The translations under genes were made by a program, and so were the position numbers. Below are positions 56,924-59,745 of a DNA stretch of 64,000 nucleotides, piece by piece (the stretch's first letter is position 1; the number at the start of each line of letters is the position of its first letter). This DNA is from Lichenicoccus roseus (GTDB lineage: Bacteria; Pseudomonadota; Alphaproteobacteria; Acetobacterales; Acetobacteraceae): contig NZ_VCDI01000002.1 of NCBI RefSeq assembly GCF_005844085.1, positions 186,001 to 250,000 of the forward strand, given 5' to 3'. The notes under the pieces were generated by a model. The model was not told where the DNA came from and did no database searches. It saw only the letters and a list, made by a program, of their open reading frames with translations.

Positions 56924-58098
56924 GGCGGGCGGCGGCCGTCGCTGCGTCCCTTGCGCTGCTGGCCGCCGCCCCGGCGGGTGCTGCGACCAACTCCAACGTC
57001 GCGGCCAAGCCGCCCTCGAGCCAGGCGCTCGGCGAGTACGTGACCGGAAAGCCGGTCGGTGGCCGTATCACCTTACGCCTGTTCGCTCCCGATGCCCGGC
57101 GGGTGACCCTGTTCCTCGGCAACGTCGATCCCACCGTGACGCCGCCCGCGACGCTGATGCGCAAGGCGTCGAATGGCGTCTGGAGCACGACCGTGGGACC
57201 ACTCGCACCGGACATGTACGAGTATTATTTCAGCGTCGACGGCTATCGTTCGATCGATACCGGCGCCGCCCTGCAGAAGCCGCAGCGGCAGGCCAACACG
57301 TCGCTGGTGTTGGTGCCCGGCAGCCTGCTCGATGACCGCGACGTGCCGCATGGCGTGGTCGGTTCGGTGCGCTACCACTCGGACGCGTTGCACGCCGACC
57401 GGCAGATGTACGTCTACACGCCACCCGGATACACCCCGTCGGGTGACCGGCTGCCGGTGCTCTATCTCTACCACGGCTTCATGGATACTTCCGGCTCCTG
57501 GGTGTTCGAGGGAAGGCTGCCGGAGATCCTGGACAACCTGATCGCCTCGGGGAAGGCGCGGCCGATGATCGTGGTGGCCCCTGACACCGAGACGGAGGTT
57601 CCGGTGGCAGAGGATTTCCCCGGCCCGCGTCTGGTGCCGGAGTTCTTCGCGCGCAACGCCCTGTCGGCGGATGCCGAACTGACCCACGAGATCATCCCCT
57701 ACGTGCAGTCGCACTACGCGGTGCGTGACGATGCCGACGGCCGCGCCATCGCCGGGCTGTCGCAGGGCGGCTACCAGACCCTGAGCTCCGGCCTGGGCCA
57801 TCCCGGACTGTTCCACTGGATCGGCGCCTTCAGCCCGGGCCCGCTCCAGGCGCCGCCGAATGCGCTGATCGAGGCCGGGCTCGCGAACCCGGCGCGGGTC
57901 AACGCGACACTGAAGGATTTCGTGCTGACGGTGGGCGATCGCGACGGGCTGGTGCTGCCCGCGACCGAGCAGTTCGAGGCGCGGCTGACCGGGCTGCACA
58001 TCCGCCATCGTTACGAGCAGGCGCCGGGCCACGCGCACGAGTTCGACCTCTGGCGCGCCGATCTTGCCGACCTGCTGCAACGACTGTTCAGGCCGTAG
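56920..58098 (+). CDS. Secreted alpha/beta-hydrolase esterase (Fes/XynZ-like)
   Basis: A 392-residue protein with a signal peptide ([20 protein letters not shown]). An N-terminal Ig-like esterase domain covers about residues 40-130. A C-terminal esterase-D-type domain follows with [11 protein letters not shown] and the nucleophile elbow GLSQGG near residue 288. His in GHAHEFDLW probably completes the triad. Relatives cleave feruloyl, acetyl or enterochelin esters. The substrate is unknown. It overlaps the HPF-like gene by four bases, and its 3' end overlaps the convergent blh gene by 11 bases. Confidence 0.82.
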
Positions 58099-58984
58099 GG
58101 TAATGCCGGAGGTTCCGGTCGGCTTCATCCCAGGCGATGCGGCCGGCCGGCGCGGCAGTGACTGCGTCGAGCAGCATGTGCGGCAGGGTCAGGGCGGCCA
58201 GCCCCTGGATGGTCAGCGCCAGCAGGCGGTCGATGAAGCTGCCACTACCGGCATCATAGAGCGGCAACAGTGATGCGCCGATCAGCAGGGTGAGCGCGGT
58301 GAGCGGCAGCGACCGGAGCATGACGTTGGATGGATCGACCCGCGGGGCACGCACCGGGTCGCGTGCGATGCCGCGCATGTGCGCCGGTGCGTGAATGGTG
58401 ACGAAATACAGCGCGAAGGCCACCAGCGGCGGCAGCAGCGCGAACGTCGCGGCGAGCCCCGCCGCCTGCAGGATCCGGCGCCGGCGACCGGCTGGATCGG
58501 ACTGCGTGAGCCAGCCGGCTGCTGCGAGCAGCCAGACCAGGGCGCAGCTCCGCAGGATGCCGGACAGTTCCGGGATCGGCGCCCGCGCGACGGTCTGGAA
58601 CACCGCCGCCGTCGCCGCCGGATGGAACAGGGACGGCAGGGCGATCGGCAGGCCGCCGAACGCCACGATGCGCAGGACGGACGCCTTGCCCGGCTGCCCG
58701 GCGCCGAAATGCCAGACCGAGCCGGCCAGGAAGACGGCGAGGCTCGACCTGGGGGCTACATCCCAGGCCACCAGCACGAGTGCCGCAAGACCGAGATAGG
58801 GGACCGCAAAGGCGGCGAACCATCCGATCCCGAAGCGGGCGCGCATCCAGGGGCGCGCGATCTCGCCGTCCAGCGCCCCGTGCGGCACGCCGAGCAGGAT
58901 GATCGCGGCGAGGGCGCAACCCTCGGCACAGGCCGGCTGCAGCCAGCTGACCAGCGCCAGCACCGGCCACGCAAGCCAGAGCAT
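58088..58984 (-). CDS. blh: Brp/Blh-family beta-carotene 15,15'-dioxygenase
   Basis: A 298-residue membrane protein with about seven to eight helices. It cleaves beta-carotene into two retinal molecules. The iron-binding histidines stand out: His35 ([10 protein letters not shown]), His92 (VWHFGAG), and His198 and His202 ([11 protein letters not shown]). Their spacing (57, 106 and 4 residues) closely matches the His21/78/188/192 set reported for marine Blh. I start at ATG 58984, 11 bases after the rhodopsin gene, so the two are one operon. Carotenoid synthesis genes are not in the window. Confidence 0.9.
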
Positions 58985-58995
58985 GCCTGCGCGGC

Positions 58996-59745
58996 TCAGG
59001 CGGCGCGCAGCGTCGGCTTGCCCTGGGTCTCGCGGAGGTCGCGTTCGGTGATCCTGGTGTCGGAGGCGACCATCAGGAAGCCGAATGCCACCTTGGAGAG
59101 CACGTCGAGGATGGAGATGGCGATCACGCTCATGGGATCGCTGATGACGTTCAGGCCGTCCGGCGCCACCAGCAGCACGACCGGGTAGAGCAGCCAGAGC
59201 ACCGAGAGCATCGTGCTGCCCTGGCGGTAGCTCGCGCGCACGTCGTCGCGCTCGCTGCGGTTGTATTGCAGGTTCGACACCCACAGCACGTAGTAGACGC
59301 CGAGGAAGGCGATGCAGGAGATCAGGAACCAGGTCCACTTGATCCACGGGACCTCGGAGGCTCCGAAGAACAGGGCGGTCAGGATCATCATCAGGTCGGC
59401 CAGCACGATGCCGGCGAAGGCACCCGCGCGCTTGTGCTGGCCATGCATCGCGGTCAGGCAGACGGTGACCAGGAGCAGCGGCGTGGTCAGGGTCCAGTCG
59501 ATGTAGCGCGCGAAGTAGAAGATGCGGGTGGCGCCGGGGCCGGCGGAAGCGACGGCGGGCAGGACGACCGAGCCCTGGCCGATCGCCATCGCGAAGTAGG
59601 AGCAGGCGGCGATCAGCGGCACGATGCCGTGCAGCACGGTCTGCAGTTCCTCCGACGCCGTGCGGCGCTTGCCGGTGGCGAGGATACCGAGGCCGCCTGC
59701 CAGCATGATGATGGCCGTAGCCCAGTTGAGGGTGTGGGAATTCAA
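58996..59745 (-). CDS. Microbial (type 1) rhodopsin with D-T-T helix-3 motif
   Basis: A 249-residue seven-helix protein. Helix 3 reads ARYIDWTLTTPLLLVTV: Arg80, Asp83 (proton acceptor), Thr87, and Thr94 where proton pumps have Asp or Glu. Helix 7 has Asp214 and the retinal Lys218 (ILDVLSKVAFG). Trp184, Tyr187 and Pro188 line the retinal pocket. Leu91 fits green absorption. Helix 2 has Ser49 where proteorhodopsin has its His. Phe140 aligns near the carotenoid-window Gly of xanthorhodopsin. The start is probably TTG 59745, with GGAG upstream. Proton pump or sensor is undecided; no transducer gene is adjacent. Confidence 0.9.
   Translation of the reverse strand: MNSHTLNWATAIIMLAGGLGILATGKRRTASEELQTVLHGIVPLIAACSYFAMAIGQGSVVLPAVASAGPGATRIFYFARYIDWTLTTPLLLVTVCLTAMHGQHKRAGAFAGIVLADLMMILTALFFGASEVPWIKWTWFLISCIAFLGVYYVLWVSNLQYNRSERDDVRASYRQGSTMLSVLWLLYPVVLLVAPDGLNVISDPMSVIAISILDVLSKVAFGFLMVASDTRITERDLRETQGKPTLRAA

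Follow-up and report, generated by a model that had tools for sequence, protein, structure and literature searches.

The window, a 64,000-nucleotide stretch of Lichenicoccus roseus DNA, carries on its minus strand a gene for a microbial rhodopsin followed by one for Blh, a beta-carotene 15,15'-dioxygenase. In minus-strand order, a D-amino-acid dehydrogenase gene (59858-61180, minus) precedes the rhodopsin gene (58996..59745, minus) and the blh gene (58088..58984, minus), beyond which a plus-strand esterase gene (56920-58098) converges on blh. The dehydrogenase stop is separated from the rhodopsin start by a 112-bp gap (59746..59857, minus), and the rhodopsin stop from the Blh start by 11 bases. 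The rhodopsin has 249 residues and matched Pfam Bac_rhodopsin (PF01036) at 142.6 bits (cut-off 24.6). Its start codon is a TTG that aligned with the ATG of its relatives (MGSH/MDSH), with a GGAG located 9 bases before it. Blh has 298 residues, from an ATG at 58984 to a stop at 58088, and a slightly longer frame (58091-58999) matched NCBIfam TIGR03753 at 173.4 bits (cut-off 95.25). Four of its histidines, H35, H92, H198 and H202, which we take to be metal ligands, were invariant among 12 aligned Blh proteins including that of the window. The coordinates and both profile matches agree with an earlier note on this DNA, which had described a rhodopsin-blh pair 11 bases apart, and the immediate neighbours, the dehydrogenase and the esterase, bear out its remark that no transducer is adjacent. 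Scans of the locus for a sigma-70-type promoter (in the 112-bp gap) and for a terminator gave no match; judged by gene position, blh would be co-transcribed with the rhodopsin gene.

The source genome (4.79 Mb in 26 contigs, rated 100% complete) contains one rhodopsin match. The reading frame is not a chance one, because the protein is kept at 47-71% identity across the 15 other rows of alignment A1 that belong to the MpR-like group, introduced below. Estimates of dN/dS were ~0.29-0.53 in comparisons with five Acetobacteraceae relatives; one Methylobacterium row gave 0.87, with a dS that is unreliable in such GC-rich DNA. The rhodopsin looks to be under selection.

Alignment with bacteriorhodopsin (BR) paired D85, T89, D96, D212 and K216 of that protein with D83, T87, T94, D214 and K218 of the window rhodopsin. 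The full acceptor set is present (Y50, R80, D83, W84, T87, W184, Y187, D214 and K218), and as far as sequence tells, the acceptor side (R80, D83, T87, D214) is that of bacteriorhodopsin. The claim of D83/T87/T94 with D214 and K218 kept, and with no carboxylate at the donor position (T94 codon 59464..59466, minus; S84 in the pump SpaR), was thus confirmed. It was also correct that the helix-B histidine of proteorhodopsins is missing, Ser49 standing in that column, but a separate helix-B histidine had gone unmentioned: H39 (codon 59629..59631, minus), at the position of BR T46 and SpaR H37, which we propose as proton donor or gate on the cytoplasmic side.

The predicted model (pLDDT 91.6) has seven long helices, and together with K218 in helix G and the counterions D83 and D214 these are the features of a type-1 microbial rhodopsin. 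At the columns of the proteorhodopsin signature, helix-B His plus D-T-E, the protein has Ser49 and T94, and the NDQ motif of sodium pumps is absent, its places being taken by D83, T87 and T94. Leu91 is kept at the colour-tuning position. Antenna carotenoid binding as in xanthorhodopsin needs a Gly at the position equivalent to BR W138; we rejected such an antenna here, this position being F140, a Phe in 24/24 MpR-like rows. By sequence, the nearest solved structures were SpaR (8ANQ, 155 bits) and PspR (7W74, 114 bits). Foldseek also ranked SpaR 8ANQ as the best match of the model (TM 0.85/0.92), and Z-scores from VIA-align were nearly tied for many rhodopsins, among them SpaR (32.9), glycilhalorhodopsin 8XX8 (32.5) and bacteriorhodopsin (32.4).

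To place the protein we used an alignment and tree of 50 rows, comprising 42 rhodopsins from loci and eight reference sequences, in which the group names MpR-like, SpaR-like, PR and DTE were assigned from the alignment, ahead of the tree. Three duplicates (L042, L002 and L003, of L001, L035 and L023, respectively) and one truncated protein (L039) were dropped beforehand; four proteins that fail phmmer at 1e-5 (L018, L019, L040, L041) and two further PF01036 matches that lack a locus (G164:C570, G161:C471) also stand outside the tree. MpR itself is absent from it, and two Methylobacterium plasmid proteins with the E32, E33, D35 pattern (L045 and L046) served as stand-ins.

The window rhodopsin sits among 24 MpR-like rows with a support of 100/95, in a clade of DTG, DTS, DTA and DTT rhodopsins from Acetobacteraceae and Methylobacterium. 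Six SpaR-like rows form a clade of their own (100/100), and the six proteorhodopsin rows lie apart. Forcing the window row into the SpaR-like clade cost 23 log-likelihood units (AU p 0.071); this placement is disfavoured, yet with an AU value above 0.05, so that the bootstrap is clear and the AU test not decisive. The DTT motif occurs in five rows, those of the window, L015, L022, L036 and L035, all in the family of the window's host. Whether D-T-T proteins form a clade had been proposed as a check: they do not in the free tree, where L035 is placed away from the other four, although a DTT clade is unrejected (AU p 0.115). No relatives of the window rhodopsin were found in viral contigs.

PMC10154332 separates MpR-like and SpaR/PspR proteins as two groups in which the third motif letter is non-carboxylic, counting 103 SpaR-like proteins (motifs DTG, DTS and DTT) and 60 MpR-like ones, of which 48 are DTG, nine DTS, two DTA and one DTT. 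Our clade fits the published MpR-like group, and the window rhodopsin appears to be a further member of an already described group. With this placement, the idea of an unusual single case finds no support.

The helix-B histidine is fixed throughout both groups, being present in 30/30 rows (24/24 MpR-like and 6/6 SpaR-like), and among the 20 other rows it was found in cyanorhodopsin-II only. Each of the six proteorhodopsin rows has Ser or Ala in this column, and two Salinicola DTS proteins that fall outside both groups have Ala. Position 94, by comparison, is T in five, S in six, G in eleven and A in two of the MpR-like rows, with at least nine changes on the tree when MpR-like and SpaR-like rows are taken together, and is therefore not the constrained element. 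Among the aligned sequences, then, it is the histidine that stays constant, and little can be read from the third motif letter; motif letters alone mislead, because the Salinicola DTS proteins and the marine DTT FArhodopsins fall elsewhere. Two further columns, those of SpaR S121 and S199, are G128 and S206 in the window protein and Ser in 10/24 and 19/24 MpR-like rows, and in this sample neither appears to split the two groups cleanly. The earlier note had read the protein as donor-less and perhaps a sensor. The first part stands in that the donor position has no carboxylic residue. As the outcome that would refute it, the note had named firm placement within a known pump clade that has its donor elsewhere; the tree puts the protein firmly in a clade matching the published MpR-like group, and H39 is a candidate donor. 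The sensor reading is disfavoured. The oddity seems mostly explained by membership of a known group whose members have a His instead of the carboxylic donor.

The two groups differ on the cytoplasmic side, E32 being present in all 24 MpR-like rows and in none of the six SpaR-like rows. PMC10154332 gives E32, E33 and D35 on this side for most MpR-like members; in our 24 rows E33 was found in nine and D35 in two, and the window protein has E32 and E33, with Q35 replacing D35. This pattern bears on the ion. Li+/Na+ pumping has been reported for an MpR-like member (Cho et al. 2021, as cited in PMC10154332 and PMC11006869), and the window rhodopsin could be a light-driven pump of the same kind, with E32 and E33 as an acidic mouth for cation uptake. 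The clade-wide E32 is in keeping with such a pump, as is a clade in common with the plasmid rhodopsins L045 and L046, which bear all three acidic residues. The replacement of D35, a residue scarce in the clade as a whole, and the lack of the NDQ motif speak against it, and we regard Li+/Na+ transport as unlikely, if a serious contender.

We prefer to read the window rhodopsin as a member of the MpR-like branch of DTG/DTS/DTT rhodopsins that pumps protons outward when illuminated, a reading to which we give a probability of about 0.58. We infer ion, direction, donor role and pH dependence. Light would isomerise the retinal bound to K218, and D83, held by T87 and accompanied by D214 as the other counterion, would accept the Schiff-base proton. 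Re-protonation of the Schiff base would then take place from the cytoplasm via H39, and not via a carboxylate at position 94. This role is suggested for H39 because it is homologous to SpaR H37, with T94 in place of S84; T94 may hold H39 in place as S84 does H37. A cytoplasmic entrance or cavity with the clade-invariant E32 would feed H39, and Blh would supply the retinal. The predicted cycle is fast at acid pH, where H39 would be in its protonated form, and becomes slow beyond pH ~6-7.

The SpaR data come from PMC10154332. SpaR is there an outward pump at acid pH, with a cycle of ~90 ms at pH 5 versus 2.3 s at pH 8. A role as donor or gate is proposed for H37, to which S84 is close enough for a hydrogen bond, and the pK of the donor group is estimated at 5.8. 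The substitutions H37L and H37F blocked pumping, and S84D/E gave faster M decay and lower pumping. Pumping persists in H37A and with some polar substitutions, and the His may accordingly be something other than a strict donor. The slow photocycle that the earlier note had expected remains a fair prediction for the window rhodopsin at neutral pH, since SpaR has a slow cycle. Several points count against the proton-pump reading: the sole characterised MpR-like protein is the reported Li+/Na+ pump; H32, H33 and E92 of SpaR are lost; the structural ranks are nearly tied; DTT FArhodopsins are silent; and no lycopene cyclase was found.

A slow cycle, expected where a carboxylic donor is lacking, would also suit a photosensor that signals to a transducer or a soluble partner, and two plasmids (L046 and L047) carry a chemoreceptor gene in the vicinity of the rhodopsin gene. 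These chemoreceptors are unlike the short two-helix Htr types: that of L046 has one hydrophobic stretch (residues 87-105), and that of L047 has two, ~245 residues apart. No transducer is among the genes adjoining the window pair, and the Blh pairing and full set of pump residues point to a pump, all of which makes a sensory role improbable. On the Methylobacterium plasmid L046 (992-9091), a photolyase-like FAD gene, the chemoreceptor, the rhodopsin and blh lie within 6 kb, adjoined by an IS91 transposase and an integrase, possibly as a mobile light-response island.

A blh gene stands beside the rhodopsin gene at 21/24 MpR-like loci, with Blh in two frames at two loci (L030 and L038); the three loci without it are L022, which ends at a contig edge, L036 and L026. 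Neither the dehydrogenase nor the esterase that flanks the window's pair turned up at the 21 other loci searched, within their short flanks, and for this reason rhodopsin and blh seem to move together as a unit of two genes. In a survey of the family, 30/397 genomes had a rhodopsin match, 22 of these 30 being MpR-like in the tree and the remaining eight holding DTE or SpaR-like rhodopsins, fragments, or proteins outside the tree. A less sensitive single-protein search of a sample of the class (385 genomes) gave only two other matches at E 1e-8, which are 30% and 27% identical.

The claim of a coupled retinal supply held in part. Besides Blh, the source genome has phytoene synthase and desaturase domains, which lie in one reading frame. 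This uninterrupted 812-aa frame with CrtI and CrtB domains (L059:10211-12646, minus; contig C1, ~543.2-545.6 kb) resembles a CrtI-CrtB fusion. Three models gave no lycopene cyclase in this genome: TIGR01789 and TIGR03462 found none, and TIGR01790 gave only fragments of 20-26 bits. Considering these weak matches as candidates, we found that one is the BchP gene, that the second and third are like a flavin-dependent halogenase or monooxygenase and like SQR, respectively (both under their own models' cut-offs), and that the fourth (L058) resembles dihydrolipoamide dehydrogenase by sequence. None of them looks like a cyclase. Across 16 rhodopsin-bearing genomes, TIGR01789 was above its cut-off only in the SpaR-like G417; relative G017 had two sub-cut-off matches (67 and 59 bits), one of them ~2 kb from its second rhodopsin (DTE), G164 and G219 had 23 and 19 bits, and the other 12 had no match at all. 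G017 (loci L020 and L072) carries two rhodopsins, DTT and DTE, and its second CrtY-like gene (L072) adjoins a Blh-like gene. Elsewhere in the source genome lie two CrtI-family genes and an acyltransferase gene (L069:8660-12662, minus; contig C12, ~345-348 kb) and squalene/phytoene-synthase-like genes (C21:184-186 kb), which together may be a C30 carotenoid pathway.

This gap is one reason to doubt that the pair gives a working pump in its host. The retinal precursor might be missing, the pair then being a relic or reliant on outside retinal or carotenoid; none of the three models found a cyclase even in a genome rated complete. Alternatively, a DTT protein might not transport at all: by the account in PMC10308929, Olson et al. 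found DTT FArhodopsins silent in E. coli, with retinal unbound and no proton transport, and a change from DTE-Q to DTT-T abolished the function of a working protein. The window rhodopsin lies outside the proteorhodopsin clade, keeps Leu91 and has its own Blh; both genes are complete, the rhodopsin is seemingly under selection and the Blh histidines are intact. An above-cut-off cyclase is, moreover, missing in all 15 MpR-like genomes tested, which an unrecognised cyclase fits better than decay. We therefore hold a non-working pair to be very doubtful. In our literature search, which covered few subscription papers and so is weak as a sign of absence, we found nothing tying rhodopsin to Methylobacterium, lycopene cyclase and retinal.

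The source genome also contains pufL and pufM, BchZ, BchC, BchI, BchH, 5-aminolevulinate synthase and CrtD, the last six above curated cut-offs, and BchP. These matches (C1:503949-505624 and loci L077, L078 and L059) mark a gene cluster for bacteriochlorophyll photosynthesis, and the organism is a potential dual phototroph with rhodopsin and bacteriochlorophyll. Dual phototrophy is not new in kind, since PMC7701988 describes it and predicts both systems in 55 public genomes; a search covering few subscription papers, and thus weak evidence of absence, found no literature joining rhodopsin, pufM and Acetobacteraceae. The pufL/M genes were present in 9/16 tested rhodopsin-bearing genomes of the family, including all five DTT genomes. 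We considered a link between the DTT motif and photosynthesis genes (5/5 DTT versus 4/10 other MpR-like genomes, Fisher 0.044) but make no claim for it, the tree offering only two independent pairs. More tentatively, and with doubt predominating, we suggest that photosynthetic Acetobacteraceae may run a second, His-gated light pump beside their reaction centres, with retinal made through a type of cyclase outside TIGR01789, TIGR01790 and TIGR03462.

With these findings, a rhodopsin group that is small and was described only recently extends to photosynthetic Acetobacteraceae. The contrasts of H39 with T94 and of H+ with Na+ offer a clean test ground for the ion specificity of the MpR-like branch. 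Most is to be gained from this specificity and from the route to the retinal precursor; should the lack of a lycopene cyclase be confirmed, it would point to an unknown route.

Set against known systems, the window rhodopsin resembles SpaR (8ANQ) and PspR (7W74) in the histidine (H39, their H37), in D83, T87, D214 and K218, and in S206 and D203 (their S199 and D196), but has ~34-41% identity to them and belongs to a separate clade. The H32/H33 pair of SpaR is missing, with E33 (or L34, counting from H39) and Q35 in its place, and SpaR E92 and S121 are replaced by G102 and G128. Glycilhalorhodopsin 8XX8 from Salinarimonas soli is a close structural neighbour and, in the tree, sits nearby on a long branch; it differs in its TTG motif, where Thr replaces the acceptor Asp, and in a Gln aligned to H39, and its PDB title names it a halorhodopsin. 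Cyanorhodopsin-II (8H79) also has a His in the H39 column but forms a long separate branch at 28% identity. DTT proteorhodopsin-family genes are the subject of PMC10308929 and PMC5864233. The DTT FArhodopsins have the motif in common with the window protein and belong to the proteorhodopsin family according to the former; the window protein, unlike FArhodopsins by that description, lies outside the proteorhodopsin rows of our tree, in which FArhodopsins are absent. With the MpR-like group, typified by MpR of Methylobacterium populi and with one DTT member in PMC10154332, the window protein has in common the clade, H39, the D/T motif with a non-carboxylic third residue, E32, E33 and a blh partner. 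It differs from the type in having T instead of G at position 94 and Q35 for D35, and in its host, a member of the Acetobacteraceae with photosynthesis genes.
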